64,000 nucleotides of DNA, taken from Phytopythium helicoides. Lineage: Eukaryota; Oomycota; Peronosporomycetes; Pythiales; Pythiaceae. The notes below the pieces were generated by a model, which saw only the letters and a program-made list of their open reading frames with translations, made no database searches and was not told the origin of the DNA. Of the stretch, positions 3,419 to 61,623 are shown piece after piece (within the stretch, counting starts at the first letter, position 1; the number at the start of each line of letters is the position of its first letter). A program made the translations under genes and the position numbers. The stretch spans positions 1 to 64,000 of the forward strand of contig JANFNE010000060.1 of assembly GCA_024867545.1 (NCBI GenBank). Direction: 5' to 3'.

Positions 3419-3615
3419 GCACAAGAGTGTAAGCGCAGGAAAGAGCCCTCGTCAGCATGTACGTCGAATCGGGTTTGAGATTCGCTTCGTGGTCCAGTGG
3501 GTTCATGGTAAATCAAGCTGGCAGTTGATGGTAAAAAAAAATGGGACTTTCTACCCCAACCACCAAGTGTTTGTAGACGTTTTTGGCACGTATCACACCT
3601 TGCGAGGAATTACCC

Positions 3616-3616
<1 letters not shown>

Positions 3617-3647
<31 letters not shown>
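3617..3647. repeat. Poly(C) tract
   Basis: 31 consecutive C, about 200 bp downstream of the poly(G) tract and in inverted relation to it. It ends 14 bp before the target duplication of the Ty3/gypsy element. Confidence 0.9.
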
Positions 3648-3666
3648 ATGACCACTAAATCTGTCC

Positions 3667-4206
3667 TGTAACAGGGTTACACAGTTTGTGCAGTGGACTG
3701 AACAAACGAGTCACACTTTGTGCTGGGCACAAATCTGTGTGTTGCAGATTGTGCGAAACGCACAATCTGTGGAGCAATGGTGCGTCACCATGGCTCCGTT
3801 CCAAGCGTCGACAGTGGTGTGGGATACACCACTGCTAGTCAAGCTCCTGACGGGATAGTGCCGAGTCACTATTCCACTGCGTACGTCCGGACAGCCACTC
3901 ATGGCTGCCCTCGCTTCTCATTGGCTGTTAGCGGGCACTAATAGCCAATCAGCGTCGCTCATTTTTGGTGCGGCGCTCATGGCCACCCATGAGCGCCTGC
4001 AATAATGCATATATAGTTTCTAGGAGGTCAGGAGCCTTTGCACCCGTCTAGCGGGTTGCTAACAATCAATACAGTTCTCATTTCTACCAGTCAAGTGTCT
4101 TTCGTCTCACACTGTACATTCAGTACAGTGTGCATACGTTAACCAAGTCAACGCTTCCTCCTTACACGCGCACGTGTAAGTCGCGTAACTGGACAGCCCA
4201 GCTACA
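3667..4206 (+). repeat. 5' LTR
   Basis: 540 bp, TG...CA ends. Contains a run of perfect hairpins, for example 3746-3755 with 3759-3768, 3812-3820 with 3826-3834, and 4108-4117 with 4123-4132. The same sequence recurs at 11262-11801. Confidence 0.95.
4007..4016 (+). promoter_or_regulatory. TATA box of the 5' LTR
   Basis: TGCATATATAG lies about 190 bp before the LTR end, downstream of several ATTGG/CCAAT boxes. Expected position for the U3/R promoter of the element. Inferred, not measured. Confidence 0.5.
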
Positions 4207-4208
4207 CC

Positions 4209-4217
4209 TGGTAGCAC
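4209..4217 (+). other. Putative primer-binding site
   Basis: TGGTAGCAC starts two bases after the LTR end. TGG complements the CCA end of a tRNA, as expected for minus-strand DNA priming. I cannot name the tRNA. Confidence 0.55.
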
Positions 4218-4254
4218 TTAGTAGTCCGTCTCACGACCGACTATTCCGAGCGCA

Positions 4255-5211
4255 ATGAGTGCGCACGTCGCGGGTGAGGACCAGCCGATGAGCGGAGCGC
4301 CGCTCACCGGTTCCCACGACATCACACGAGAGATGTGCCCGCATCTCTCGGACGCCGAGTGGTTGGCGTTCCAGCGTCTCGCTGGAGTGATCGGAGAAGC
4401 ATCCGTGGCTGCGATGCTGCAGTCACAGTCCAAGGACCAGCACCTCGCTTCGATTCGCGGGTTCATGCTGCATGAACTCTAGCAGAAGCAACAGAAGACC
4501 ACTCCTGGGGAGCCGGGCGCGCGGGGCGCGTCCGTGAAGCTCATGGTGCCTCCCTACCACGGGAAGAAGGGCGAACCACTGCTTCGGTGGTTCGTGGAGC
4601 TCGAAGACTCCATCTCGCTACGACGGATCGGGGATCCGTCGGTTCAAGTCATGTACGCCATGCCGTGCCTTGGCGGCAGCGCTAGGCGCTGGGCGTATGG
4701 TCGTAGGCTCGCGGAGCCTACGTGCTTCGCCACGTACGAAGCTTTCAAGACCGAACTGCGTGCGGCATTCGAGCCAACGCAGAACGAATTCCGCTCGAGG
4801 GCTCAATTCCTCGAGCTCAAGCAAGGCAAGCTCGACATCCGAGCTAACCCGGAGCAAGCAAGCTACCTTGCTTCGAATGTTGTGAGCAAACCGCTCACCG
4901 AAGCCACGAAGGTCGTCACCTTCATGAAGGGATTGAACGATGGGCCTGTGAAAACCCATCTGTTCCGCGTCTACCCATCGACGATGAAGGAGGCGATTGA
5001 GATTGCCTTCGCCGAAGACTTCAGCTTGAATCAAGCTGAAGAGTATGCTGTCGTCCACCACCGTCGACCACGTCTTCGGGTTGACGAGCCAGAGCCGATG
5101 GATCTTTCCTCGGCTGCTGTCGAGCGTCGACAGCGACCGCGCAAGCCGAAGCATGAGCAAGAGTGCTTCCTGTGTGGCCGTCGGGGCCACTACACTCGCG
5201 AGTGCACGTGA
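4255..5211 (+). CDS. gag of the Ty3/gypsy element, one in-frame TAG
   Basis: Starts at the first ATG after the primer-binding site. The frame is open apart from a TAG at 4480-4482 (after residue 75) and ends with TGA at 5209. The central part matches the retrotransposon Gag domain pattern (a WA..R...PTCFATYEAFKTELRAAF-like block), and the C-terminus has a CCHC zinc knuckle, CFLCGRRGHYTREC, for nucleic-acid binding in the particle. The stop is followed by CAG AAG, which resembles but does not fully match known leaky UAG contexts. Either readthrough or a recent C-to-T change (CAG to TAG) explains it. Confidence 0.8.
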
Positions 5212-5238
5212 AGTGGTCAACGCCCGCCTCGGCGTGGG

Positions 5239-6270
5239 ATGCGCGCCGACGGATTCCGTCCGCGCGGTCCACCAAAAAAACGGCAACAACCAGTAGGGGC
5301 GGGGCGCCCTACTGGTGAAGCGACGTCACGAGCCGATGTTGGCAATGTGACTGTCGCTGCCCCCGGTGCGAGGGACTCGCACCGTGAAGAGGAGGACGGG
5401 TCAGCCGGGCTGATCGTCCTCGAGGTCGCGTCGGAGGGTAGCAACCTCCGCACTTTAATGGATTCAGGCGCGTCGAACAACTTCATTCGACGTCGGAGCC
5501 TGCAGAAGGTGTGCTTCGAGGAGACTGCTGCTCCTCGAAGCGATTTGGTGGTGCGCTTGGCCACAGGGGCCGAGCTGAGCACGCGGAAGCGCGTCGTGAA
5601 CGCGTGCTTCCGATTCAAGAGACGAGTCTTCCGGGAAGACTGCATCGTGCTTGATCTCGACGACAAGTACGATATGATCCTGGGCATGCCGTGGTTGCGA
5701 CGGCATGAGCCTGTGATCGATTGGGTGACCCAATCGATCAATTTCAGAGCACGCTCCCACAAGGCCGTGGAAGCGTCGAGTGCGACAGTGAGCGTGAGCC
5801 CTGTCAGCACCGCTAGCTCACAGCGATCCCAGGCGACAGTGAGCGATGGCCCTGTCAGCCTGGATCGAGAAGAAGATAGCCGTCCGACTCCGGGAGTCGG
5901 ACGCCCCTCCGCTCAGGGAGCCGAGGGCCGACGCCGGGCGTCGAACGCTGTCTCAACGAGGAGACCAGCGAACAAGAAGATTCCTCTGCCGCGGACGCGC
6001 GAGCAGAGTGAGACGGCTTCATCTCCTTCGGGAAAAGAGATGTCAAGCAGCACGCTCCCTCTTGGAGAGGTGGAAGCGAAAGAAGACAACAGTGGTGGGC
6101 ATAGCACTGCCACCACTGACGCGCTCATGACTGGGTCAGAGCAGCGATCAACGAGCGGGGCTCGCATTGCCGTCGGCCAACCAAAGCCGACGAGAGAAAA
6201 CAAGAAGAGCGTCGTGGCGATAAATGCCATGACACAAACCTGCACTGGTGTTGAGTGTAGAGTTACCTAG
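5239..6270 (+). CDS. Aspartic protease (retropepsin) region of the Ty3/gypsy element
   Basis: Same frame as gag, continuing directly after its TGA (open from 5212; first ATG 5239). It carries the retropepsin active site LMDSGASNNF and the later hydrophobic MILGMPWLRRHEPVIDW block usual for Ty3/gypsy proteases. It is followed by a long Ser/Arg-rich linker and a TAG at 6268. The protease would normally be made as part of a Gag-Pol polyprotein and cut it. The lone stops at 5209 and 6268 in one continuous frame are discussed in the findings. Confidence 0.8.
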   Translation: MRADGFRPRGPPKKRQQPVGAGRPTGEATSRADVGNVTVAAPGARDSHREEEDGSAGLIVLEVASEGSNLRTLMDSGASNNFIRRRSLQKVCFEETAAPRSDLVVRLATGAELSTRKRVVNACFRFKRRVFREDCIVLDLDDKYDMILGMPWLRRHEPVIDWVTQSINFRARSHKAVEASSATVSVSPVSTASSQRSQATVSDGPVSLDREEDSRPTPGVGRPSAQGAEGRRRASNAVSTRRPANKKIPLPRTREQSETASSPSGKEMSSSTLPLGEVEAKEDNSGGHSTATTDALMTGSEQRSTSGARIAVGQPKPTRENKKSVVAINAMTQTCTGVECRVT

Positions 6271-6318
6271 GTCGAGCAACCTCCGAGCACGGCATCGGAG
6301 CTGGTTGCTCTTCCAGTC

Positions 6319-9300
6319 TTGAGCTGGAAGCGATTCTCGAAGGAGCTGCGCAGGGGCGCGCTCGAACAAGTGTGCGTCATCTCTGAGCAAGAGATGACGA
6401 TCGACGTCAACAAGAAGGTCGAGGAGTTACGTCAACTCCTCGTAAGCGAGAATCCTGAGGATGAGAAGACCCTCAGTGCGAAGACCAAGCGTGAGCGATT
6501 CGAGGAACAAGGCTGGGCCGCCCTCGAATCGAGTCCGTTCTACGACGTCCTGCGTGAATACGCGGACGTATTCCCGGACGAGGTTCCGGAAGAACTCCCA
6601 AAGGACAAGGGAGTTCGGCACGAGATCGATCTCGTGCCGGGGACGAAGTACTGCGTGACGCGGCAGTGGCTACTGCCGCGTGAACAAGTCAAGGCGATCG
6701 ACGAGTTCTTTGAAGCTCGTCGGAAGGCAGGACAAGTGCGTGAGTCGACCTCACCGCACAGTGCCCCGACATTTTGTGTCAAGAAGGCACAGGGTGGCTG
6801 GCGCATCGTTCATGCTTACAATAAGCTGAACGATGCAACGGTGCCGGCACAGACGCCGATACCGAGGAAGGATGTCATCATCGATTCGATGAGCGGGAGT
6901 ACAATCTTCAGTGCTCTCGACCTGCGCGACGGCTTTTATCAAGTTCTCATGCGTGAGCAGGATATCCCGCTCACGGCAGTCAGCACCCCAAGCGGGATGC
7001 TGTGGGAGTGGCTAGTGATGCCACAAGGGCTCAAGAATGCCCCAGCAACATTCAACAGATGTGTGACGCACCTGTTGCGGCCGGTGCGTGAGTTTGCACC
7101 GAGCTACTTCGACGACGTGTACATCCACAGCCGAGCTGTGGATGAGAAGACTGACGTTGAGGTGCATAAGGAGCACCTCCGTCGCCTGCTGGAGCTCATG
7201 CGGAAGCATAAGCTCTATGCCAACCTGAAGAAGTGCATCTTCGGGGCAAACGAGATACCCGTGCTTGGGTGTCTCGTCGGACGTGATGGCGTTCGCCCGG
7301 ACCCCGAGAAAGTCCGGGTGATCAACGAGTGGCCGCAGCCAAACAACCCCAAGGAACTGCGTCAGTTCCTTGGCCTCGCCACGTACTTGTGCAAGTACGT
7401 GAGCAACTATGCGGGCCGCATTCGCCCACTCTCGCAGCTCTTGAAGAAAGAGGCTGCATGGGCATGGACACCCGAGTGTCAAGGTGCCTTCGAGGCGATC
7501 AAGCAGGGCTTGACCGAGGCACCAAACTTGGCCATCGCTGACCAAGATCGAGATTTCCACGTCGTGTGTGATGCCTCCGATTTTGCAATCGGATGTGCGT
7601 TGATGCAGCGTGATCACGAGGGGCGTGATCGCGTCGTCAGCTACCAGTCGCGCCAACTCAAGCCGTTTGAGCGGAACTACCCCGTTCATGACAAGGAGCT
7701 CCTTGCCATGAAGTACGCGCTTGCGAAGTTCCGAGTCTATCTGCTCGGTGATAGACCGTTCACCGTCTACACGGACCATGCGTCCCTGCGGACAGCCGTG
7801 AAGACGCCACACATCTCGCAAAGGATGGCGAGGTGGCTACCCTTCTTCGCAGAGTACAACTTCCAGGTTGAGTACAAACCTGGAAGGCTCAACGTCGTCG
7901 CTGACGCTCTATCGCGGCGACCCGACTATGCAGTCAGGCCGGAGGAACAAGTTAACGCCGTCGGCGCTTGGAGCGCTGACGTCCCAATATCGTCGCTGAT
8001 CGACGACGTCAAGACCGCCTACACGCTTGATGAGGACATCAAGCGACTTCTCAAGTACGCAGAGACACCGTCACCAGTGTCTCTGAAGGCGCTCCCTCCA
8101 CACCTCCGAGCTCGTGCACACCGCTTTGCTGTGCACGACGGTGTCTTGCTCTATCGCGACACCGACGGCGACGCGCGCCGCGTCGTCGTGCCAAATAGTG
8201 AGGATCTCAAGCTGCGGATCCTCTACGAGTACCATGATGCGCCGGTGGCCGGCCATCTTGGACGTGAGAAGACGTACGTGCTCCTCGCGCGTGACTTCTA
8301 CTGGCCGCACCAGTACAAGTGGGTGCGCAAGTACGTTCGTGCTTGCGAGATTTGCCAGCGTGTCAAACCAGCACCTGTGTCACAGGCGCCGCTCAACTCA
8401 CTACCGATCCCATCGGAGTGTTGGGAGTCCGTCTCCATGGACTTCGTGTTTGGGTTGCCGCCCGACGCAAAGCGTCGTACGGGTGTCGTCGTCTTCGTCG
8501 ACCGATTCAGCAAGATGGTGCATCTTGCTGCTGTTCCCAAGACCATAACAGGCGCGCAAACGGCACGCCTGTTCTTTGACACGGTGTTTCGATCTCACGG
8601 CATGCCGCGTGAGATCGTGTCGGACCGCGATCCGCGGTTCCGCGGTGGTTTCTGGCAGGAGCTATTCAAGCTCCTTGGTACGCAGTTGTCGATATCGACA
8701 ACTGATCACCCTGAAACGGACGGTCAGACCGAACGCGTCAATCGCGTACTCGGTGACGTCCTGCGCAGTTACGCGCACTCGTTCCGAGACTGGAGCGAGT
8801 GTCTGCCGATGGCCGAGTTCGCCATCAACAACTCGGTGCATGCCTCGCACGGGCACACACCGTTCTTCGTGAATGCCATGCGGCACCCACGTCTGCCTTC
8901 CGTCCTGGAGACGTTGGCTCCAACCTTGAGTGGGGGAGGACCCGCAGTCTCGACGCCGAGTCTGCGTGAGAACGCAAACACGAAGAAGCGCGGACAGCAC
9001 GTAACGCTGTCTGCGGCAAAGGCAAGTTCCGACCAGTCTAAGCCGTTCTTGGACCGTCGTCAAGCAGTGATCCGGTACGTCCAAGACGCACTGGTGGCCT
9101 CTGTCGATCGACAGAAGCTGAACGCAGACAAGCATGGACGAGGAAACGTCAATGAGTTTGAACCAAATTCATTAGTGTTGCTTAGCACAAGCAACCTGCC
9201 TACACATGCAGTGCCGGACTACGGAGCGAACAAGCTCGCTTCGCGCTGCATCGGCCCGTTCACGGTGCTCGCGCGCCGTGGTACAGCGTACACACTGGAC

Positions 9301-10074
9301 ATCCCGTCCAGCATGCAGCTGCACCCGACGTTTTACGTCGGCCGCTTGAAGCCTTACCGCCAGTGGCGCGACCGTGAGGGCGATGACGGCGCCCTCACGA
9401 GTAGTACGCCTCAGAGTCGCTCGAGCGCTCTGGAAGAGGGCTCGGAGAACGCGTCTCCATGTGAGCCGCGTCGCGAAGAATCGGATCCGCGCGACGGCGG
9501 AACCGGCGGTAGCTCGCTTGGAACTCGCGATGGCTCGCCGCCAAGCGGCGACGCGCGTTCACCTCCGCCTCCAGTTGCGTCTGGAGGCGCGAAATCACCG
9601 CAGCGTCCTCGGCGCGCTCACGGAAGCGCCGCTCGATCTCGGTCTCCAGCTGCGAGATCTGCAGCTGGAGTTGAAGAAGACGCTCACCATCGGAACACGT
9701 TGACTGCGGAGTCAACGCGCGCGGCGCACCCTCCGCCGCCGCCGCCGCTGCGCGATGCGGCTGGCGCGACCCGCTGGATTGTTGAGCGGGTCGTATCTCA
9801 CCGTACGGCACCGGACTCCCCAAGTCCGACGCATTTTCGAATTCGTTGGAGAGGATTTCCTCCCCAACAGGACACGTGGGAGCCGCGGGACGTCCTGATG
9901 CACGACGTCCCGGATCTGGTGATCGCGTACGAGGCGCAGCACTTGCCTCGTACGACCGCGACGACGACGCGTGGTCGAACTCGTCGAGCGGCCGGTCCGG
10001 CCACAGCCGACGGCGCTCCGAGACGATCTGGTCGGGTATGGCGCCGCCATACCCGCGGCAGTCCCAGTCTGTAA
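6319..10074 (+). CDS. pol: reverse transcriptase, RNase H, integrase, chromodomain
   Basis: 1251 codons, same frame as gag and protease (open from 6271). Reverse transcriptase spans about 6600-7400 with the catalytic YFDD near 7099. RNase H follows (VVCDASDFAIGCAL, TDHASL; about 7555-7900). Integrase shows the HHCC zinc region near 8255-8370 and the D, D, E core (MDFVFGLP; IVSDRDPRF; TDGQTERVN). Near the C-terminus a chromodomain (WIVERVV...RIRWRGFPPQQDTWEP; 9775-9930) probably directs integration to particular chromatin. No frameshift or stop is seen inside. The last 680 nt overlap a long antisense ORF. Confidence 0.92.
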   Translation: MSWKRFSKELRRGALEQVCVISEQEMTIDVNKKVEELRQLLVSENPEDEKTLSAKTKRERFEEQGWAALESSPFYDVLREYADVFPDEVPEELPKDKGVRHEIDLVPGTKYCVTRQWLLPREQVKAIDEFFEARRKAGQVRESTSPHSAPTFCVKKAQGGWRIVHAYNKLNDATVPAQTPIPRKDVIIDSMSGSTIFSALDLRDGFYQVLMREQDIPLTAVSTPSGMLWEWLVMPQGLKNAPATFNRCVTHLLRPVREFAPSYFDDVYIHSRAVDEKTDVEVHKEHLRRLLELMRKHKLYANLKKCIFGANEIPVLGCLVGRDGVRPDPEKVRVINEWPQPNNPKELRQFLGLATYLCKYVSNYAGRIRPLSQLLKKEAAWAWTPECQGAFEAIKQGLTEAPNLAIADQDRDFHVVCDASDFAIGCALMQRDHEGRDRVVSYQSRQLKPFERNYPVHDKELLAMKYALAKFRVYLLGDRPFTVYTDHASLRTAVKTPHISQRMARWLPFFAEYNFQVEYKPGRLNVVADALSRRPDYAVRPEEQVNAVGAWSADVPISSLIDDVKTAYTLDEDIKRLLKYAETPSPVSLKALPPHLRARAHRFAVHDGVLLYRDTDGDARRVVVPNSEDLKLRILYEYHDAPVAGHLGREKTYVLLARDFYWPHQYKWVRKYVRACEICQRVKPAPVSQAPLNSLPIPSECWESVSMDFVFGLPPDAKRRTGVVVFVDRFSKMVHLAAVPKTITGAQTARLFFDTVFRSHGMPREIVSDRDPRFRGGFWQELFKLLGTQLSISTTDHPETDGQTERVNRVLGDVLRSYAHSFRDWSECLPMAEFAINNSVHASHGHTPFFVNAMRHPRLPSVLETLAPTLSGGGPAVSTPSLRENANTKKRGQHVTLSAAKASSDQSKPFLDRRQAVIRYVQDALVASVDRQKLNADKHGRGNVNEFEPNSLVLLSTSNLPTHAVPDYGANKLASRCIGPFTVLARRGTAYTLDIPSSMQLHPTFYVGRLKPYRQWRDREGDDGALTSSTPQSRSSALEEGSENASPCEPRREESDPRDGGTGGSSLGTRDGSPPSGDARSPPPPVASGGAKSPQRPRRAHGSAARSRSPAARSAAGVEEDAHHRNTLTAESTRAAHPPPPPPLRDAAGATRWIVERVVSHRTAPDSPSPTHFRIRWRGFPPQQDTWEPRDVLMHDVPDLVIAYEAQHLPRTTATTTRGRTRRAAGPATADGAPRRSGRVWRRHTRGSPSL

Positions 10075-11218
10075 GACGTGGGTCGCCCGGCCAACATCTG
10101 CGGCAGTACTCAGTGCTGGGTACTGCGCAAGCCACACCCGCCTGCACGCACTGGTCGTGCAGGCGATCGATCTGAAGCGAACGCGAGAACGTATTGTAGC
10201 GTTCACGCGCGTCTTGCAGCCGCTTACGGTAAGCGGCTGGATCTCTGTTGAAATTGGTGACGAAATCGCTCCAAGCCTGTTGGAGCGCCTTCTCGACGGA
10301 GATCTTGCTTCGATCGCTCGTTCCCTTCCCGCGAAGGAAACGCAACTCATGGAACAGCGCAATGTAATAATCGCGCCGGCGCTCGCTTGCTGGAGGCAGG
10401 TTGAGCGCGCGCGCAACCTCGTCGTCTGCAATGCGCGAGCAGACGTACAGCATTTCGCTGTGATCTGGGTGTGAAAACCCATAGCGACGCCGAATGGTCT
10501 CGGCGTCGGGCATCCACGACGGTCGCTCGGCTCGCACGACTGCACCACGCGGTGCAGTCGATCTGGATGCAGTGTCTTCACCGCGCGCGCTCGCAGCGCG
10601 CGCGTCACGATCTGGAACCCGCGCGCGGTCGCGCGCTGCAGTGTCGAGTGAGCGGGGCTCACCCTTCAGCTTCTTCACCACCGAGCTCTCGTCCGAGAGC
10701 TCGCCCTCCTCACGCGTCCGCCGCGCGGCCAACGTTGGCTGCGCAGGTTTCTCTTCTTCAACCGCGTCGTCTGAGGACGACGCGCCGGACAACGGCTCTG
10801 TGAAGAACCGCATGTCTATCGCTGGCGCGGCCAGCTTGTCGACGATTGAACGCGCCGCCTCCGGCGCGGAGCCCTCGGGCGGCTCCAAGAAGATCTCCAA
10901 CGTCGTCAGCGGGGCTGACGACGACGACGGTTGCTCACTGGCCGCGCTCGCGAGAGCGGCGGCCTCTTCGCGCTGGACCGGGGTGCGGTGCAGACGGTCT
11001 TGATAGTCAGCGAGCGACAGACGCTGTCGCTCGGGCGCGCTTAAGGTTGTGGAAGCCGCCGGCGCGGTGCGCGCCGGCGCGGGGGCTTTCTCCTCGAGGT
11101 CGCCGTTGCCCGAGCTCATGTTGCTGTATGAGCTCGCCAAGGAGCACGCGCACGCGCTGCTCTCTTCTCCCCGTCGCTCTGCTGCGCTAGCAGAGTGAAT
11201 CCGACCAACAAGTGCCAC
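9395..11218 (-). CDS. Antisense ORF of the Ty3/gypsy element, unknown function
   Basis: 607 codons on the opposite strand, beginning 43 bp inside the 3' LTR and ending within pol. I do not recognise the family. The N-terminal half is acidic and Ser/Ala/Glu-rich. The middle (about 240-400) looks folded: segments such as GFSHPDHSEMLYVCSRIADD and YYIALFHELRFLRGKGTSDR, and a cysteine/tryptophan-rich part (EYCRRCWPGDPRLTDWDCRG). The C-terminal part has a predicted coiled coil (LLQLQLQISQLETEIERRF). The 3' 680 nt lie antisense to the chromodomain and linker of pol; about 1.1 kb upstream of that has no sense ORF, so this strand is the likely coding one there. A nuclear or particle role is possible but unsupported. 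Confidence 0.6.
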   Translation of the reverse strand: MALVGRIHSASAAERRGEESSACACSLASSYSNMSSGNGDLEEKAPAPARTAPAASTTLSAPERQRLSLADYQDRLHRTPVQREEAAALASAASEQPSSSSAPLTTLEIFLEPPEGSAPEAARSIVDKLAAPAIDMRFFTEPLSGASSSDDAVEEEKPAQPTLAARRTREEGELSDESSVVKKLKGEPRSLDTAARDRARVPDRDARAASARGEDTASRSTAPRGAVVRAERPSWMPDAETIRRRYGFSHPDHSEMLYVCSRIADDEVARALNLPPASERRRDYYIALFHELRFLRGKGTSDRSKISVEKALQQAWSDFVTNFNRDPAAYRKRLQDARERYNTFSRSLQIDRLHDQCVQAGVACAVPSTEYCRRCWPGDPRLTDWDCRGYGGAIPDQIVSERRRLWPDRPLDEFDHASSSRSYEASAAPRTRSPDPGRRASGRPAAPTCPVGEEILSNEFENASDLGSPVPYGEIRPAQQSSGSRQPHRAAAAAAEGAPRALTPQSTCSDGERLLQLQLQISQLETEIERRFRERAEDAAVISRLQTQLEAEVNARRRLAASHREFQASYRRFRRRADPILRDAAHMETRSPSPLPERSSDSEAYYS

Positions 11219-11248
11219 CCAACAGGTTTACAGCGGGGCTGCAACCTT

Positions 11249-11261
11249 AACGGGGGGAGGG
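11249..11261 (+). other. Polypurine tract
   Basis: Purine-rich AACGGGGGGAGGG immediately before the 3' LTR, the expected plus-strand priming site. Confidence 0.8.
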
Positions 11262-11801
11262 TGTAACAGGGTTACACAGTTTGTGCAGTGGACTGAACAA
11301 ACGAGTCACACTTTGTGCTGGGCACAAATCTGTGTGTTGCAGATTGTGCGAAACGCACAATCTGTGGAGCAATGGTGCGTCACCATGGCTCCGTTCCAAG
11401 CGTCGACAGTGGTGTGGGATACACCACTGCTAGTCAAGCTCCTGACGGGATAGTGCCGAGTCACTATTCCACTGCGTACGTCCGGACAGCCACTCATGGC
11501 TGCCCTCGCTTCTCATTGGCTGTTAGCGGGCACTAATAGCCAATCAGCGTCGCTCATTTTTGGTGCGGCGCTCATGGCCACCCATGAGCGCCTGCAATAA
11601 TGCATATATAGTTTCTAGGAGGTCAGGAGCCTTTGCACCCGTCTAGCGGGTTGCTAACAATCAATACAGTTCTCATTTCTACCAGTCAAGTGTCTTTCGT
11701 CTCACACTGTACATTCAGTACAGTGTGCATACGTTAACCAAGTCAACGCTTCCTCCTTACACGCGCACGTGTAAGTCACGTAACTGGGCAGCCCAGCTAC
11801 A
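11262..11801 (+). repeat. 3' LTR
   Basis: 540 bp, same as 3667-4206 except for two differences seen by eye near the end (within 11777-11788). Followed by target duplication TGTCC. Confidence 0.95.
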
Positions 11802-11814
11802 TGTCCACTTTTTT

Positions 11815-11853
11815 GGCATTGCAAACATGTTGTACATACAACATGTTAATGCC
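11815..11853. repeat. Perfect hairpin next to the insertion site
   Basis: AACATGTTGT (11824-11833), loop ACAT, ACAACATGTT (11838-11847), with an outer GGCATT/AATGCC pair (11815-11820, 11848-11853). It lies outside the LTR element, 9 bp beyond its target duplication. Confidence 0.85.
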
Positions 11854-12149
11854 GTGCAATGACTTAAAATTTGTATTGGGCCTGCGCACGGCTCTGAAAA
11901 ACGCTACATGGAGATTGGTGCATAGCTAAACCATATACAACAAGTTTGGCCATCGATGCTGTATATGTCTCCCACGGTACTGCTTGATATTGTATGTGTT
12001 ACCCCAATGCGTGAGTTGGTTGATGGCCCTTTTATCAAGAGACAGAGCACCAAGCACAATTTTTGCAATACACTGGTGTCAAAGTACGTTCACAAAGCAA
12101 AAGATGCAGATGAACGTTAGCATCGACAGTGCATTACCTTCCAGCAATC
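11854..12149. other. Intergenic, nothing firm
   Basis: Between the two retroelements. A short plus-strand open stretch ends at about 12120 (...KHNFCNTLVSKYVHKAKDAD) and reads like protein, but I cannot assign it and it is preceded by stops. Confidence 0.3.
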
Positions 12150-12152
12150 CAA

Positions 12153-14171
12153 CTAAATGTACACCGTGATCCGTCGTCCAGCAAGCTGTCCGTAACAGAC
12201 TTTCAGCACCCGAGGTAGTGCCAGCACCTCCCTTTCCGCTGGGTGGTATCTCGTCTCTGCGTCGTTTAACACGCGACCACAGAACCGCACATGGTGTAAA
12301 ACCCCATCGTGCATATGCATAACAGTTCCGCTGAGCGCCCAATTGTTCGCAAACACCATAATGCGGACTTCCAGATCTGGTTGGAAGTGCTTCAACACCG
12401 GTGCGGCTGCATCTTTTGCTTTGAGCATTTCGAAGGCCGCTCGGGCTGGTCCCAGTCGCTCTTCTGACAGGAAATCCTCGTTACTCAGCTAGTAGAGTGC
12501 CGCTCCGTAGACCGCCAGATCCTGGATGAACCGGTTGTAGTAGTTCAACGCCCCCAGGAATGCTTGAACGCCCCTTTTCGTGGAGGGGAATGGCAGGTCT
12601 TTCAGCTGTCCCAGCTTCTTCTTGTCAGCAGACAGACCATTTCCACTGACCTTGTGTGACAGGAAGGCGACTTCGTTCTTGCAGAACAAGCTCTTAGTGA
12701 AGCTCACAATGATCCCGCACTCTTCGAACCTGGCAAGCAGCCTCTCTAAAATGTCTAGACACTCTTCCGCTGTCTTCACGCCGAAACAAATGTCGTCCAC
12801 GAATGATCTTCTGCCAAACACTGGTACTAGCACTGAATCTTCAGGAGCTCCTTCGCTGAAAATGTCCTTAGCTACTGCGCTCACTGGCTTGCTTCCTTCA
12901 GCAGTATTTTCCGCTAGGGTTTCTGCTTGAGCTACTCGTTGCGCTCGTTCGGCCTAACCTTCCTCTGGCTTTACGAAGCCCCACAGTGCATTATCAATCA
13001 TCCGTTGGTATATCCTCGGCGCATTTTTCAGCCCAAATGGCATCCGCAGCCATTCAAAGTGTCCGAGGGGACAGACAAACGCCGACATCAGTCTCGCACG
13101 TGCAGAAATGACGATAGCCCAGAATCCACTCGCTGCATCAAGCGAGCAGAACCACAAATAGCTGTGCAATTCCGTGAGTAGGTCGTCCACCAGTGGCATA
13201 GCATACTCCAAGATCTTTGTGATCGCATTGACCATCTTGTAGTCGATGCACAACCTGATATCTACCTTGTTCTGCTTCATGACGATCACAATTGGAGATG
13301 CCCACTCGCTACTTGAGAACGCAATTAGCCCAGCACTCAACAATCCTTTCAGCAGCTCGTAAAACTTCTTCATGTGCTTCAACAGAATCCTGCGTGACTT
13401 CTGCTTGATTGGTGCGTGATCCCCCACATTGATATCGCACACCACACCATAAGCTAACGGTGGAAGCGCATTTCCGCTGGAAATTAAGATTGCTTTGTGC
13501 TTCTCCAGACAGCTTACCAACCGTCCTTGTTGCTCTGCGGTTAGCTCAGCATTTTCCACATTTTCCGCGGTAAAGTCCAGCTCATTCTGTCCAGTGTTGT
13601 CTACCTCGGGGAGGAAAGCGAGCTCTTGCGCATAGTCCTCAATCATTATCGGCTCTTCTTCCCGGGTGAATGTATCACCTGGCTCTTTATCACAGGGCAT
13701 TTCGTCGCCGGCTGCTGCAGCTGCAGATGCGTACACCGATTCGAGCTCGCTGAGGGGGTTTTCTACTCGCCACCGCTCTCTCGCCGGGGTAGAGTCTGGT
13801 TCTTCCTCATTTTCCGCTGAAAACTCTATTGCTTCCACGGATGAACTCAAGGCACTGGCAGCAGCGCAGATAGGCTCCGCTGGATCTCGTACCATCGTCT
13901 GGGCGCTTCCAGTTTCCGCTGGAGCCCTTGGCCTTCCCAAAATCGCTTTTGGCCACGGATACTCGGGCTTTGGGACGATTGGCGGCTGCTTAGCGAGCCA
14001 TTGCTCGTAGATCTCCTTTTCCACATGATATAGCTGCTTGTCTTTTGCAGCTGAATAAGCGAGTACATGAAAATCGACGTACTTTGGTGAGTGGACTCGA
14101 ACATATCCATATTGTTGAGGCATCCGCCCCGCGGAATCCACACAGCCATTTCCGCTCGCAGTGGACAGCAC
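12153..14171 (-). pseudogene. Reverse transcriptase and RNase H of the second Ty3/gypsy element
   Basis: The frame from 14171 to 12954 has a long acidic Ala/Glu-rich linker and then the reverse transcriptase start (SEWASPIVIVMKQNKVDIRL, FGLKNAPRIYQ). After a break, 12884-12489 continues in another frame with the catalytic FVDD and the thumb region. RNase H is represented by 12428-12153 (RFCGRVLNDAETRYHPAERE). The RNase H is cut off after the VYI of its core, and no integrase follows. Frame changes between these blocks show that the gene is dead. Confidence 0.85.
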
Positions 14172-14208
14172 ACTCCACTGTCGGTGACGTTCGTTAGCCT
14201 CACACTTT

Positions 14209-14775
14209 TCACTCGTCCCGACCTAGCGGAAAAACCGTGGGCACGAGCTCCTCCGTGCGCTTCACCCAAAGCTCGTGGGTTACCGCTCCAAGCTGGTTCT
14301 TCGGTGCCCGGTAGTCTTTAAAGCCTCGTGGCTCGATAGTCAACAGCTCTGTCAGCACATACAGAACTTCTTCTCCTGTCTCGGGCTCATCGGCATCATT
14401 CACCGATTTCACGAGCGGAATCACCACTTCATCTGGCAATTTTGCCTTCAGGTTGTACATGTCCAGCCGTACGCCGACTGGAAGCATGAAATTCGTCCCA
14501 AGGACCACATCCACTCCTGCGTTGTGATTCATCACCCACAGACCATACACGTACACCGTGTTCCATCCGAGGGTAATCTTCACCAGGACGCGTCCCCCAG
14601 CGACGCCACTCTTATCGTTGATTCCTTGCACGGTGATGACCTTGTTCCTCCTCATCGCTTTGGACAAGTTGAGTCTTTCCGCTAGCTTTTTGCTAATCAT
14701 GCTGACGTTTGCTCCTGTATCCAGCAGGATCTTCATCCGTGTGTCGTCCACCGCGCCATTCACCAACGCTCTCAT
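14209..14775 (-). pseudogene. Aspartic protease of the second Ty3/gypsy element
   Basis: 188 codons open. The retropepsin active site is KILLDTGANVSMIS, with the later VDVVLGTNFMLPVG block. It sits between the zinc-knuckle end of gag (upstream, 15135) and reverse transcriptase (downstream, 14171), in the usual order. The domain itself looks intact, but the element around it is broken. Confidence 0.8.
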
Positions 14776-15662
14776 CCTGATCTGTTTAACGAACCGCCTT
14801 GAGGCCCACCATCATCGGCGTTCTCCGTCCTTCAGCTCAAGGACCCGCTCTATCTGGAACAACTGTGCCGCATCCGCGTCATCCTCACTCACTTGACGGC
14901 TGGATGCGGCTCCTTGCCAACTGGTCGGGATTTCCGCTGTCGAATCCCACCACCTTACTCTCTTCCTTCCAACATCTTGCTCACCAGTCTCCATTTCTTC
15001 TCGTCCCAAGTCGTCTTCCGCTAGCAGCCATTCAGCCGAACCCACGTAGGCACAAATGTAATTCGCATCCAGCGTCGGTTCGGCTAACTGTGGCAGCCCG
15101 TTCGAGCCCAGCCCAGTTTCAGCTGGCGGGCCTGCTAGTTTAAAGACTCGTGGATCTCCTTGATGTCGTCGGGAAGAGTGTTGGGGTCGAATTTGGTGCC
15201 GACAAACTTGATCAGTCGCTCGAGATGCTTGTTCTTCTCACACTGCCCTGCTGGGTGAACTTGCAGGCACATTTTGCAGCGCTGGAAGCAGAGATGAGTC
15301 GGATGGTCTATTCTTCCGCACGCTCCACATGTCGTTTGGCTCCAGTCCTCTCGCAGCTCGCGGTTGCGAGGCGGGTATTGAGGATAGCCCATGCGGCGTC
15401 CGTCCGGTACTTGATGCTGCCCCTGGTATGAAGGTGGCTGCCTGTTGGCTTCCTGTTCAGCGGAATCGACGAATTATCCATCCGAATCGTACTCCTCATC
15501 TTCAGCTCGCCGATCATCGTGGTCCCAGTGGTCCCAGTAGCTTCCGTCGTGGTATTCATCATCGTAGTAAGTTTGTACTCGGTGACCGCGGTCTGGAGCG
15601 CGATTCGCACTGGCTGAAACGCGATTTCCGCTGGAAGTTCGGCGCATTAGAGCTTCGGGTCA

Positions 15663-17519
15663 GTTACTGTGTAGTTCGGTGAATGCTCCATGCATTACAA
15701 ATTGCACCATAGAATTGTGTTGGATACGAAACAAAACCATATATGGGGCACGCAAACATCCAGTCCGTGGTATTCGCTAAAACAGCCCGGCTGGGAAATC
15801 ACCGGCTCAGTTCAAGACAAACGGGAAAACAAACGCAACAATCGGTGGCTGGGCAAAAGCCCGATCGCCACATTAGCCTAGTCAAAGGCAACACTCTGAG
15901 CGAAGAGAAAGTCTTCGCTTTCCTCGCCACTGTCGATTAGGCTGGGGGGCGTCATGGACGGGCGAGAGTGGCGCGGGATTGTGCCACCGTGGCGCTCGAC
16001 ATGCGTGGCAAATAGCGTACGGAGGCGGGCTCGGCGATTCTCACGGTAGCGCTGCTGGATAGCGACTCTGTTGTCTCGGCGCTCAGTGCCAATGACATGT
16101 AGCCGCTTCAAGTAGTTCATGTACTTGGTGTTATCTTCCGCGCGGAGAGGATGAGCGCGAACATGCATGTTTGTGGGCGCGACACAGGCGCGGAAGAAGG
16201 TGTCGTAGTTGCGGCCTCCCCATCTGTACTTGTCCGAGCAAATTGACCATACAATGCACAAACGACCAAAGAAATTCTCGGCGATGATACGGTCATGGGC
16301 GAGCTCATCGTTTGCCTTCATCCGATCGAGAGTAAGTGGCTGGTGCGGGCGTTTTTTGTGTGGCGTGATAGCTCGGAAATCGGCAGCGAGACTCTGGTAC
16401 CCCTTGTCAGCAATTACAGCCCAGTCATCAGGGTATTGGTCAACAAGGCGACCCTCATCGGGGATCGCTGTCTCAACGTCTCGTTTGCGTAGTTGGGCGA
16501 CGTGAAAGGTGTGATTTTCACGAAATATTTCGATGTCGGCATGGCTTCCGGGGTGATGATGCGTGCAGTTAATGGCAAGGCCATTAGGTAGACCTGAGAC
16601 CTCCACCTTGAAGCCATGTAGGTGGTGCTTGGCACTGTAGAACAGCGTCCGCTCGTTCATGTTGCCAGACGGCATGTTCGTCTGCTGGAAAGTGACATCC
16701 GTCGCGTAACGCGCCCACGGGTAGTACTTGAACGTGTTGCCGTAGAGTGTCAGAGTCTCCATAGTGTACTTGTCAGCCATCTTCTCGACATAGTTCTCAT
16801 AGAGGAACGGCGACACCACCTCGGCAAACCCTAAGATCATCTTTTGGAATGTCGGGGCACGAATGCGAAACACGCTCGCCACCACGTCCCATTTACCACA
16901 GTTCTTCAGCACGCACAGGAACATGAAGAAGACGTCTTTGGGCGTTTGTGCACACTTCTTGCCGCGGCCAACATTCCAGTTCCGCGTGACGTGGTCACGT
17001 ACTTGAGCCCATAAGCGATCAAACTCGATTGGCCCAAAGTTTGTCATCAATAGTATGTTTTCGGTGTTGTCGTGGAGAAAAGAACGGTAGATTGGGGATG
17101 GAGAGTCGATCTCATCGTCGGACAAGTCGAGACGCACAGCCGCGACTCGATTGCTCTGCGCTTGGCGCTCGTTGTTAATCTCTCGAAGAGTGGCGACACC
17201 CTGCGAAACCACCCGGGGTGTGAGCTGCTCACTAGCAGTCCCTCCAGCTGCCTGGCTCCCACGCTTTTTCTTTTGTTGGGAGCTTGGCATTGTAGCTTCG
17301 GTCTTGGGCGGCAAGTTCGGAAATGGTGCGGTCTCCTGGTGGTGTGTGCAAGTGCTCGACAAGCAGTCGGTCGTGCGAGAAGGACTCGGTGGGAAAGTTT
17401 TCGAAGACCTTCAACTAAAGTTTGCCCACTTCAAGCCGGGCCGAGTCTTGCGTGGGAGACTTCCTGATATTGAATGGTGCACATGCAACTTATCGATTTA
17501 GTGCACAAAACTGGTAGTA
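15663..17519 (-). mobile_element. DDE transposon nested in gag
   Basis: Interrupts the gag reading frame. The word GTCA stands on both sides (15659-15662 and 17520-17523) and may be the target duplication. Terminal inverted repeats are not clear by eye, so the exact ends are uncertain. Confidence 0.55.
15878..17362 (-). CDS. DDE superfamily transposase (PIF/Harbinger-like, DDE_Tnp_4 type)
   Basis: 494 codons, uninterrupted; a likelier start is the methionine at 17291 (MPSSQQKKKRG). The N-terminus is basic, followed by a helix-turn-helix-like region, then the catalytic domain with D in YATDVTFQQ, D in WAVIADKGYQ and E in RIIAENFFGRL, spaced as in DDE_Tnp_4 transposases. Ser/Thr-rich acidic tail. 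No partner Myb-like ORF of the kind Harbinger elements often carry is visible in the 1.86-kb insert. The protein looks intact, so activity is possible. Confidence 0.8.
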   Translation of the reverse strand: MSSTCTHHQETAPFPNLPPKTEATMPSSQQKKKRGSQAAGGTASEQLTPRVVSQGVATLREINNERQAQSNRVAAVRLDLSDDEIDSPSPIYRSFLHDNTENILLMTNFGPIEFDRLWAQVRDHVTRNWNVGRGKKCAQTPKDVFFMFLCVLKNCGKWDVVASVFRIRAPTFQKMILGFAEVVSPFLYENYVEKMADKYTMETLTLYGNTFKYYPWARYATDVTFQQTNMPSGNMNERTLFYSAKHHLHGFKVEVSGLPNGLAINCTHHHPGSHADIEIFRENHTFHVAQLRKRDVETAIPDEGRLVDQYPDDWAVIADKGYQSLAADFRAITPHKKRPHQPLTLDRMKANDELAHDRIIAENFFGRLCIVWSICSDKYRWGGRNYDTFFRACVAPTNMHVRAHPLRAEDNTKYMNYLKRLHVIGTERRDNRVAIQQRYRENRRARLRTLFATHVERHGGTIPRHSRPSMTPPSLIDSGEESEDFLFAQSVAFD

Positions 17520-19283
17520 GTCAATATCTGCGTCGAAGATCTATTGTTAGCGCATCGATCAGCTCACTCTCTGTTGCTTCCACCAGACTGATTCTTGGCG
17601 GGTTTCGAGCCCCATCACGGCGGCGTTCATTGTCTCGTTCTGGTCTACCGCGCCCCATTGGGCTCCGGGCCTTCTTCCGCTCCTCACCGCGTAATTTCTC
17701 TTGGATCATCCGCTCGAGATCGTCAATTCGAGCGATTCCGAGCGGATAAAAGCGATCCATGAGCTCGTCGTCTCCGCACGTCATGTGGAACTGGCGAACA
17801 TGTTCCGCTCCTCCATCGAACAAGCTGATGCGAATTTTTGCCGCCTTGGCGTATCCGTTCAGCCGAAGCAGGTAATCGAGAACGTGCTCGTTCGACCGAC
17901 GAGCAGCCTGGTAATATCTGGCTGCTGGTTTGTCTGGCATTTTTGCAGTAGTACTCGAGGAATGCCTCGCACAGCTACGTCCACTTCCTCTTCGTCTTTG
18001 ACGATAGCTGGCGGAACCAGTCAAGAGCTCATTTGCGCAGCCGCAATTTGAACGTGTCGACCCACTGATCTTGCGGCCGCTTCAATCCTTTCATAGCGTA
18101 GACAAACATCTTCAGTCACTGCGTGGCTCCCTCTCCGCGGTCGCGATCGCCATAGAATAACGCGATCGTGTCCAGCGGAATATGCGTTTGTATCTGGATT
18201 GTCTGCGCTGTTCCCGCTCCTGGGTGAGCTGAAAAGGCTTCTCGCACTTCCTGAAAAGGATCTTCGCGGTCTCCATCGATGCTCTCCATCTCAACGTCTT
18301 CCTTGTCCACTTCCGCCTTGAAAGCCAGCTGAAAAAGCGTTTTCTCTCGCTTCTTCTCTTCAAAATCGTCATATTCATCTTCACCTAAGAAGGTAAGCGT
18401 CTTCCTTGCAGGTTTCTTGGCGGAATTTTTTGTTACGGTGGATGGAGTCTTCTGTTGGTCGGTTCCAGGCATCCGGGACGGGTGCGCGGACTTCCCACTC
18501 GGTGGGGGGATTCCGCTGGGTCCCGACATCTCGCTCCAGCCAAATTCTTCGACGATACGCCGCTTCCACTCCTTCACTTGGTCTCGGACCTCCTTGAAGT
18601 CGTACTTGTCGAGCGTTTCGACGTCGGGACGAGCGTTGCACCGTATCCCCAGAGACAGAAGCAGTCTCTCCGTCTAGAGAGTGAGCAGATTGATGTTCTC
18701 CACCGTCAGTGGCTCCCACAAGGTCTCCCACGCGACGACCCAAGACGGCTTTATCACGTATTCGGGATCGAATAATCCCATCCACCGCGCACTCCGCATC
18801 TGCTTCGCCAAGCTGAGCATCGTCTTTTCCGCTGCTGGCGAGTCCTTCAGCTTCGACTCGGTCGCAAGCGACAATTCAGCATGACGGACGTCGACAGGTG
18901 GGTCCGACGGGGAATTCGCACCAGCGGAAACTCTTCCAGCGGCAGAAGCACCTCCGGTTGAGCGTACTGGCGCCCCCGGGACGCTCCTAGCACCGCCTGC
19001 AGCCATTCCGCTGCTCAACAACACCTCTTTTTCATCTTGGTCACTCTCCTCCAGCTCCTCTCGCACTTCTTCAGCTGCTAACTTCTCCTCGAACAGGTCC
19101 GGAGTGACCTGCTCGGCGAATTCCGCCAGCTCTTCGTCTTCATCCCGCGCAGTCGTCACTGCTCGAGCTGCCGACTTGGCTGAAGTCGCACGCGAGTAGC
19201 TCTTCACCATCGTCTCCTCTTCACTCGTAAGTTGCTTGCTGAACCTGTTGGCACGACAACGCAATCCGGGCATGCGCACCAGT

Positions 19284-20019
19284 TGTGATATAGTGACTGT
19301 AAAATATACAGGCGTATTGAACCCCCCTCACGTTGTGTCCCCTTTTGGCAAGGTTCTTTCCCTATAAGCCGGGTTGCACACGTATGAACAGGGTCCAACA
19401 AGCAACACACACACCGCTCCGCTGGCTACGAGCAAGCCAGCGAGCTGCACTCGCACTCCGTGCCCTCAGCTAGAAAGCTGACGACGTGCACTAGGCACTA
19501 CACGGCAGCTGACGGACCGAAATCCCTCAGTCGAAGGGTCTTTCGCCGCACTAAAGGCGGCTCGGCCCACACACAGGGCCACCAAGCACTCCCACACTCT
19601 TGGCCTGACCTTGGGCGCAATCGCGACACTCATTGTGCGTTGGTGCAGCCGGCGGTCATATCCAGCCCACACCCATGACTCACCTTGCGCAGATGCTTGC
19701 GTCGGACTTGGAAAATTCCGCTCTGTATTGGTTACTCTATAGCTTCATCATCTTCCTACTGTCTCCTATAGAATATGCAAGTATAAAAATCCTACTTCCG
19801 CTGAGCAGTCGCGTCCGACCAGCAGCGGTGCCTCTTCATCTGTCCATTGGGCCGTTTGACTGGCCTTTGTATGGGCAGCTTGGGCGACCTTCCTGCCACC
19901 GCCCGCTCACCCACCCAGACTTTCGTCACAGTCCACTTATCACAGTCGGCTGTACACACCCACCACCGGCCAGTGTACCCGTCTACTGGCACTGCCGTCC
20001 GTCACCGTCTGAGGGTACA
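19284..20019 (-). repeat. Remaining 5' LTR of the second Ty3/gypsy element
   Basis: On the minus strand it begins TGTACCC and ends ATATCACA, 736 bp, followed after two bases by TGGTGCGCATGCC, a good primer-binding-site candidate (19267-19281). A TATA-like TTTTTATACTT lies at 19782-19792. No second copy is present in the window, so the ends rest on TG/CA and the primer site only. Confidence 0.5.
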
Positions 20020-61115: not shown

Positions 61116-61623
61116 TATCCTCCGCCTGGAACGTTCTCGACTGCGACGTAGATACTCCAAAACAATCTGTAAATGAAATTTGTCCAACCCAAGAAAATGA
61201 CGGGTAGTATCCACGAAATACGCTCTCATAGAGCGTATGAGAGCGTATTTCGTGGATACTGCCATGTAAAAGCGATCACCCACTTGACATCGCAGACGTT
61301 AGCAACAACGTACAAGGCTCAGGTGAACGCCAGCCTGTTCCATGTTGAGGATATTGGATGGACTGGTGCGTGGGAAATTTGCCCACGCCCAAGGAAAAGC
61401 ACCTTCCAATGACTTTCGGACACCGTTGACCTCTTCACGAAACTCACGACATGCACAAGTTGTGAGATGTGGTCAGCTCCCAGATGCACAGTTGTATCCT
61501 AGTAATTCTACAACTACAACAATCGGCATCGATTACATCGGAGCGTCCACGACAGAATCACGCGAAATCAATGCCGCCCCCATCCATACCCTTCCGATCC
61601 GTCAAGGGCTCGCTTCATCGCTA
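61116..61623. other. 5' region of the CRN gene
   Basis: Contains the probable 3' splice site (about 61166), a strong hairpin (61206-61260) and otherwise nothing recognisable up to the start of duplication copy 2. Confidence 0.5.
61206..61260. repeat. Perfect 25-bp inverted repeat with 5-nt loop
   Basis: Left arm 61206-61230, loop GAGCG 61231-61235, right arm 61236-61260; every base pairs. It lies 91 bp upstream of the CRN start codon in the leader or intron. Confidence 0.95.

Follow-up and report, generated by a model that had tools for sequence, protein, structure and literature searches.

A 64,000-nucleotide stretch of Phytopythium helicoides DNA (contig JANFNE010000060.1 of assembly GCA_024867545.1, positions 1 to 64,000, forward strand; hereafter the window) contains, at 3667-11801, a young full-length Ty3/gypsy long terminal repeat (LTR) retrotransposon with a chromodomain, and this element is paved with short perfect hairpins along its whole length. 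It is flanked by the target-site duplication TGTCC, at 3662-3666, where its letters adjoin the LTR, and as the identical 5 bases at 11802-11806, found by direct reading. The two 540-bp LTRs, delimited by self-BLAST (1-540 versus 7596-8135 of the element; 99.63% identity), occupy 3667-4206 (+; starting TGTAAC) and 11262-11801 (+; ending TACA). Between them, gag, protease and pol open reading frames (ORFs) are separated by stops: gag at 4534-5208 (+; Pfam Retrotrans_gag and Ty3_capsid, with a zinc knuckle slightly under the cut-off), aspartyl protease at 5239-6267 (+; RVP_2) and pol at 6319-10071 (+; RVT_1, RT_RNaseH, Integrase_H2C2, rve, SH3_Tf2-1 and Chromo). The Pfam domain order of gag, protease, reverse transcriptase (RT), RNase H and then integrase is that of the chromovirus type of Ty3/gypsy, and the chromodomain (PF00385, E 4.2e-11) lies at residues 1153-1205 of 1251, towards the C terminus of the integrase ORF. 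The closest relatives of the RT protein are from Phytophthora, with 85-89% identity in the four that were aligned (P. rubi, P. cinnamomi, P. idaei and P. ramorum). A long antisense ORF of 607 amino acids overlaps pol at 9395-11218 (-); it has no Pfam match and, when the best 7999 word-sharing candidates were scored, a single database homologue, in P. ramorum (42% identity over 39% of the query). Rfam at gathering scores gave no match over 3600-11900.

We counted hairpins as non-overlapping perfect stems of 8 or more bp with loops of at most 15 nt, unless stated otherwise. Sixty-four such stems, with loops of 0-15 nt, lie between 3745 and 11775. The counts at 8+, 9+, 10+ and 11+ bp (64, 51, 34 and 13) compare with 2.53, 0.73, 0.15 and 0.02 expected from 100 dinucleotide shuffles of the element, among which the maximum at 8+ bp was 7. 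Each ORF also exceeds 200 codon-synonymous shuffles of itself: 6 stems versus 0.3 in gag, 9 versus 0.54 in protease, 25 versus 1.96 in pol and 19 versus 1.84 in the antisense ORF, which is the most densely paved stretch and in which nearly all listed stems start with CG. Five hairpins occupy the 5′ LTR (3745-3769, 3812-3834, 3972-3997, 4108-4132 and 4161-4180) and the same five the 3′ LTR. A first-pass annotation, made from the letters of the sequence, had listed 17 hairpins, named shuffled sequence as the control for stem density and placed stems in LTR, gag, protease, pol and antisense ORF. All 17 proved exact, with stems of 9-13 bp; the dinucleotide and codon-preserving controls are both exceeded, the latter in every ORF; and all five regions carry exact or excess stems. 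Its spacing of one stem every 40-80 nt holds for stems of 7+ bp (median 65 nt) but not for those of 8+ bp (median 95 nt), and the spacing is variable (coefficient of variation 0.63-0.76).

With one LTR counted, there are 40 stems of 7 bp and then 14, 16, 20, 9, 1 and 1 of 8, 9, 10, 11, 12 and 13 bp, so that the distribution has a second peak at 9-10 bp and no steady fall past 8 bp. C stands at the outermost 5′ position in 45 of 59 stems. The excess is limited to loops below about 12-16 nt, with loops of 31-120 nt at expectation. Direct and mirror repeats show a mild excess only (11 versus 5.3 and 5 versus 2.4).

The surroundings are different. A second gypsy element at 12150-20019 has 2 stems versus 1.6 expected from dinucleotide shuffles, and the remainder of the window (20020-64000) is at chance level with 13 versus 11.4. 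Seventeen other open frames (stop to stop, 300+ codons, 30.3 kb, some overlapping on opposite strands, six sulfate permease ORFs included) hold 58, 10, 6 and 4 stems of 6+, 7+, 8+ and 9+ bp versus 68, 18.9, 6.6 and 2.1, with no excess at 6+ bp. The earlier impression that the neighbours lack paving is thus borne out for the sulfate permease frames and, at 8+ bp, for the second gypsy element; it fails for shorter stems in the latter, where a weak excess is seen at 5, 6 and 7 bp (84, 24 and 8 versus 59, 17 and 3.8). Two separate hairpins lie outside the element: one with an 11-bp stem at 11824-11847, 22 nt past the element end, and one within 60001-62000 whose 25-bp stem is the longest in the window at loops of up to 15 nt and whose surroundings are hairpin-poor.

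The hairpins are composed of ordinary codons. In several of the 17 pol hairpins checked, both arms fall in residues conserved in Phytophthora: RHEIDLVP, encoded by a 24-nt perfect palindrome at 6616-6639 (residues mostly conserved among homologues); RIVHAYNKLNDA; ATYLCKYV, encoded by a 10-bp stem with a 2-nt loop at 7380-7401 and identical in four of the five closest aligned Phytophthora proteins, the fifth differing by one residue; and FSKMVHLAA, encoded by a 10-bp stem at 8508-8530. Other checked pol hairpins lie in poorly conserved stretches, and some on residues unlike most homologues; thus PKELRQFLG, encoded at 7349-7373 (11-bp stem, 3-nt loop), departs from most homologues at its first residue: of 15 homologue rows, 10 have V there and one has P. 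A few have one arm nearer to the relatives than the other (6375-6399 and 7122-7144). Further examples along the element are a 13-bp stem with a 1-nt loop at 5714-5740 and a 22-nt perfect palindrome at 8683-8704.

One might object that composition, codon usage or mere chance accounts for the hairpins, or that they stem from inserted foldback elements or a faulty assembly. A palindrome in a coding sequence can indeed impress by eye, but this is all that speaks for such a reading, to which we give practically no credence: dinucleotide and codon shuffles are far exceeded, hairpins are present in copies on separate contigs, and the pol hairpins fall within aligned protein residues. For the focal element the reading is already refuted. 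We considered foldback or miniature inverted-repeat transposable element insertion separately and ruled it out, as hairpin sequences within one copy are unlike each other and the pol ones lie inside aligned protein.

Copies were searched within the same genome (49 Mb, 100 contigs); of 35 places from the first DNA search (39 rows, four being palindrome self-matches), 16 are the focal copy or were retrieved at length. We distinguish six Ty3/gypsy families with 55-75% amino acid identity and roughly 65-76% DNA identity: A (the focal element and L009-L011, 96-98% identical to it), B (L012-L014), C (one copy, L015), D (L016, L017, L019 and L023), E (L020-L022, three of five listed copies) and F (L024-L030, seven of ten listed copies). 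For stems of 6+ bp over 3 kb of pol, z scores against codon shuffles are 10.0 in A, 5.5 and 8.2 in B, 8.6 in C, 3.5 in D, 6.7 in E and 16.1 in F, and dinucleotide shuffles are likewise exceeded in all six. The first-pass annotation had described a single family, which is too narrow, with paving found in at least six. Thirteen other RT loci, hand-picked for variety from 139 RT matches, gave z scores of -1.8 to 2.5 on the codon-shuffle measure, with L037 borderline at 2.5; the second gypsy element of the window, of the same family as L043, is borderline at 2.2. The partial match L018 shows no excess at 5-7 bp and has three 8-bp stems versus 0.6. Among the surveyed RT loci, paving is therefore limited to the A-F clade. 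Scans of viral and genome contig collections with an RT alignment confirmed no relatives beyond this genome.

Each family has its own hairpin dimensions. The characteristic stem length is 9-11 bp in A, 8-10 bp in B and mostly 6-8 bp in C; E has a strong excess at 5-7 bp that nearly ends there (24 versus 4.6 at 7 bp, 4 versus 1.5 at 8 bp), the excess in D is weak, and paving is densest in F, whose L024 element has 145 stems of 6+ bp (loops of up to 9 nt). The outermost pair is 5′C-3′G in A (45 C and 5 G of 57) and C (26 C and 1 G of 29) and 5′G-3′C in B (28 G and 3 C of 34; 27 G and 4 C of 36); in E and F there is a lean towards G (p 0.02-0.04), and D is unbiased. This orientation reads alike on either strand.

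Some observations on the copies stand apart from the paving. LTR differences of 2.4% in L009, 0.37% in the focal element and 0% over 529 bp in L011 indicate A copies of different age. The antisense ORF is stop-free in two other A copies (93-96% amino acid identity; in two pieces in L011) and weak in L013, and was not found in L010, which is a partial A copy, or in L012, L015, L016, L020, L022, L024 and L028. Adjoining the family B element of L012 is a tandem array of 125-bp units (7895-9501, the first 1607 bases of the reverse complement), each unit of which holds a GC-rich hairpin with a 9-bp stem; 13 of the 48 L012 stems come from this array. Identity between L012 and L013 drops from 95% in the 5′ part to 81.5% in the 3′ part, a step suggesting that B lineages have recombined.

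Most hairpins differ in place between families while the density stays. Same-place hairpins number 11 versus 3.1 expected (by shift) for E and F and 20 versus 9.4 for the remaining 14 family pairs combined, the highest of these being B-D (3 versus 0.3), A-D (2 versus 0.4) and A-E (5 versus 1.9), so that a minority of hairpins is shared beyond chance. The conserved quantity would then be the density of local self-pairing, with single hairpins mostly arising and vanishing. The hairpin at 8508-8530 has a near-identical counterpart with an 8-bp stem in L012 (at the aligned place) and in L015 (place inferred). A hairpin in the PVGAGRPTG codons near the gag-protease junction (5289-5316, +) is almost identical in the window, L012, L013, L014, L015 and L022, that is, in families A, B, C and E, which are otherwise about 70% alike; its surroundings (about 5275-5315) show 88-94% identity in the family pairs reported by BLAST, D included. 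It may be a separate functional element.

Family F allowed the gain and loss of hairpins to be followed by branch. We used seven copies in two subclades (X and Y), with E (66% identical in the alignment) serving as the outgroup, and a null in which the same base change is placed at random within the same codon class. Columns were dropped where fewer than two copies were read in a subclade, where a subclade held more than two states or where both subclades varied, and fixed X/Y sites where the outgroup matched neither state or was unaligned. The polarised set comprises 520 mutations: 322 in single copies, 86 shared in a subclade and 112 fixed between subclades. For stems of 6+ bp, singletons gave 67 losses versus 72.7 expected (s.d. 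6.8) and 25 gains versus 16.0 (s.d. 4.3); shared mutations gave 6 losses versus 18.7 (s.d. 3.6) and 11 gains versus 5.3 (s.d. 2.6); and fixed mutations gave 6 losses versus 25.0 (s.d. 3.9) and 13 gains versus 5.2 (s.d. 2.0). Shared and fixed together, losses are 12 versus 43.7 and gains 24 versus 10.5. For stems of 7+ bp, losses are 48 versus 40.9 in singletons, 5 versus 11.4 in shared and 2 versus 15.1 in fixed mutations, and gains 13 versus 10.6, 9 versus 2.6 and 5 versus 3.5. The ratio of changes at codon positions 1+2 to those at position 3 is 134:105 in singletons, indicating weak protein constraint, 20:43 in shared and 31:41 in fixed mutations. Split by branch in this way, the replicating lineage of F keeps its hairpins, with gains at least equal to losses, and single copies decay. 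Loss-avoidance and gain in replicating lineages, together with loss at the random rate in single copies, is an observation on F only.

The decay of single copies bears on selection acting on chromosomal double-stranded DNA, in which cruciform-prone repeats would affect chromatin, recombination or integration. Such selection would suit the strand symmetry and strict Watson-Crick pairing described below, as well as an integrase with a chromodomain. It is nevertheless quite improbable, since singletons, taken as arising largely in the chromosome, lose hairpins at the random rate, so that selection would need later retrotransposition, and insertion sites show no general enrichment: 20 flanks (3 kb) taken from A, D and F copies hold 3 stems of 7+ bp where 1.9 are expected.

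A second test, pooling four families (A, D, E and F), located stems in a copy left out of the comparison and took sites as independent, although contrasts overlap within A, E and F. At third positions, 41 of 1601 stem sites (2.6%), 32 of 465 loop sites (6.9%) and 213 of 6996 unpaired sites (3.0%) are variable; in non-coding sequence the figures are 20 of 1845 (1.1%), 18 of 453 (4.0%) and 161 of 8131 (2.0%). Stems differ significantly from loops (p 4e-5 at third positions, 1e-4 in non-coding sequence), and from unpaired sequence in non-coding DNA (p 0.009). At positions 1+2, stems, big loops and unpaired sequence are alike, and the loops of 5-6-bp stems vary more (31 of 1245). As a separate matter, variation at third and non-coding positions is about twice as high in loops as in unpaired sequence; loops may escape a constraint that holds elsewhere, or they may have a higher mutation rate. 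We rejected an apparent 2-4 fold stem conservation among A copies as mostly ascertainment: it was overstated because stems had been picked as perfect in one of the compared copies, and with a third copy the ratio was ~0.78.

Mispairs and folding energies indicate which molecule might fold. Across eight sequences, stems with one mismatch hold 37 G-U and 45 A-C mispairs, numbers that become 35 and 40 when the second gypsy element is left out. If each family is represented by a single sequence (A, L013, L015, L016, L022 and L024), the counts are 42 and 44, and three F copies have 10-12 versus 11-17 at 7+ pairs. Fixed one-sided stem changes in F comprise 5 G-U, 13 A-C and 8 other. RNA-type acceptance of G-U on the genomic strand is thus not seen overall, in one-mismatch stems or in the fixed changes of F. 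Folding z scores per 100 nt in A are -2.28 on the (+) and -2.54 on the (-) strand (controls -0.26 to 0.09), and minimum free energy z scores per 120 nt in F are -3.11 and -3.59; the minus strand folds slightly more strongly in all the paved sequences tested, as it does in three of the four controls. Within this power the folding signal is strand-symmetric. Because G-U has no advantage over A-C and the two strands fold to a similar degree, the target would be either cDNA in single-stranded form or RNA of both complementary strands. A G-U lean noticed by eye in A (12:5) was not upheld, at 8:6 and 6:2 in two independent contrasts and absent over all families.

These data also bear on selection on the genomic (+)RNA only, for packaging, compaction or protection of RNA in the particle, a counterpart to the genome-scale ordered structure of RNA viruses. 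Structure across the whole transcript, LTR and coding sequence included, and a density that stays while most positions turn over would both be expected of it. Moreover, gains in F repaired A-C over G-U mispairs 20 to 8 and losses created 32 G-U and 24 A-C mispairs (not branch-split), a set of gain and loss types that leans towards (+)RNA, and A alone has 15 G-U and 9 A-C among its one-mismatch stems. We still regard this explanation as unlikely, given that G-U is no commoner than A-C over all families, that A-C predominates over G-U among the fixed one-sided changes, and that in no paved sequence tested is the (-) strand z weaker than that of the (+) strand.

A mutational drive has rather more to recommend it, though we would bet against it too: RT template switching, quasi-palindrome correction or hairpin repair would perfect imperfect inverted repeats, no benefit would be needed, and family differences would be enzyme properties. 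Strict Watson-Crick pairing, strand symmetry, small loops, and family-specific lengths and end pairs all agree with it. Gains run at 2.1-2.5 times random on internal branches of F, less clearly in singletons, and a few stems have several changes that fall mainly in one arm (0 and 4, 4 and 1 in L012 versus L013). According to PMC8794818, hairpins can arise and be maintained through template switching. Against this, both arms often encode conserved residues, and most differences are isolated point changes in one arm or the other. Clusters of two or more nearby changes in F (38 clusters, 86 mutations) brought 7 gains and 322 lone mutations brought 25, so that gain per mutation is equal (8.1% in clusters, 7.8% for lone mutations), and in just two of the seven cluster gains did all changes fall in the stem. 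If missing losses had been corrected from either arm, about 10 compensatory doubles would be estimated; one was found among 28 changed fixed stem pairs in F, and one further in A (5364-5384, L010). The joint orientation bias of G-C and T-A that has been proposed for switching within a strand is also absent, with G exceeding C inside the 5′ arms of seven of nine sequences and T exceeding A in just two of nine. The first-pass annotation had proposed a test of whether changes in one arm are matched in the other, which came out largely negative, and had offered selection or template switching as alternatives. Lone-point changes, clusters no richer in gains and the rarity of compensatory doubles favour selection over template switching; selection is supported in F by losses and gains on internal branches, and A gave no significant signal.

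The explanation we favour, at a probability of about 0.4, is that this clade has been selected during replication to fill its sequence with short perfect hairpins, by way of self-folding of its single-stranded intermediates. Hairpin dimensions would be under selection (stems of 6-11 bp, loops of about 0-9 nt), and selection would act when the element is copied. Single-stranded RNA or cDNA intermediates may snap into local hairpins and so avoid complementary strands; as both strands must pair internally, local folding is proposed to keep them from forming long duplexes, which could feed Dicer-type silencing or hinder cDNA handling, while each stem stays short. Sense and antisense transcripts would likewise be kept from long duplexes. 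Outside support is thin: in P. infestans, small RNAs of both orientations are reported along two Gypsy elements (PMC3522703). Since stem length and closing pair are family-specific, the data suggest an additional family-specific factor, nucleocapsid or other, that reads the hairpins. We have stated this reading for the clade as a whole; that selection of the kind seen in F also acts on the other families, A among them, is something we infer, for A from its relative F.

Several points weigh against selection for self-folding. In A, stems (defined in a third copy) vary at about 0.7-0.8 of the outside rate (p 0.16-0.32), gains and losses without a branch split are at random rates, and sites split 2:2 among copies show 15 hairpin-changing differences versus 15.9 expected; these same sites do show protein constraint, with 17 at positions 1+2 and 50 at position 3. 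The unsplit gain and loss test gave no signal in E and D, where mutations are few. Even in F, the 408 polarised mutations taken unsplit, with 73 losses versus 90.5 and 36 gains versus 21.2 for stems of 6+ bp, give 53 losses versus 53.7 at 7+ bp (gains 22 versus 11.7), and in the pooled test stems do not differ significantly from unpaired sequence at third positions (p 0.33). Silencing could also take short perfect stems as its substrates, simple self-folding does not account for family-specific closing pairs, and a selfish mutational drive within the replication cycle could also raise gains.

A more elaborate proposition, which we consider doubtful, is that of a strictly Watson-Crick, strand-symmetric hairpin layer over LTR, gag, pol and the antisense gene, with a family-specific grammar (stem length, loop limit, outermost pair) that a family-specific factor would read either on single-stranded cDNA or on the two transcripts. 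Such a layer would differ from the ordered structure of RNA viruses, which is a matter of RNA alone. If selection for self-folding is real, this would be mobile DNA under strong full-length selection for local self-pairing atop its proteins, unexplained by RNA wobble. Six related families with differing hairpin dimensions in one genome, beside unpaved RT elements, amount to a natural experiment, and make testable whether structure serves as protection from silencing, aids cDNA or RNA handling, or is a polymerase by-product. It would also be a caution that selection can act on coding-DNA palindromes as a mass although few of them are conserved individually.

Elsewhere in the window, six sulfate permease ORFs (SulP plus STAS) occupy 29760-49903. 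Two of them, at 45165-47267 (-) and 47801-49903 (+), are of equal length and divergent and, by length and orientation alone, resemble a recent inverted duplication. A DDE_Tnp_4 transposase ORF at 15881-17362 (-) lies between ORFs of the second gypsy element.

Among known systems, the Phytophthora Ty3/gypsy elements of the chromovirus type share with the focal element its LTRs, 5-bp duplication, gag, protease, RT, RNase H, integrase placed after RT, and chromodomain; the long antisense ORF of family A and the pervasive perfect hairpins set it apart. Among the papers listed by searches on hairpins, inverted repeats and ordered structure in LTR retrotransposons or oomycetes, none describes such paving in its title or abstract opening. 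Template-switch mutations resemble what we see in their perfect reverse-complement stems and small loops. They should leave behind clusters of changes that match the opposite arm, and compensatory changes too (PMC8794818), whereas here conserved residues are often in both arms and compensatory doubles are nearly absent. Some single-stranded RNA phages and viruses carry dispersed packaging-signal hairpins, many different ones across the coding sequence. The likeness lies in many different hairpins spread through coding sequence; the difference is that the common feature here is the outermost base pair, our tallies having shown no strong shared base at the loop edge (the search for loop motifs went no further than these tallies). 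Single pairings need not be conserved in genome-scale ordered RNA structure, and the paved elements agree with it in genome-wide extent, folding energy below that of shuffles, and a density that outlasts pairings. In positive-strand RNA viruses, ordered structure runs along whole genomes in a subset of lineages only (PMC3950689). Here the bearer is instead an LTR retrotransposon, and its stems are perfect, strand-symmetric and without preference for G-U, with a length and closing pair particular to each family.

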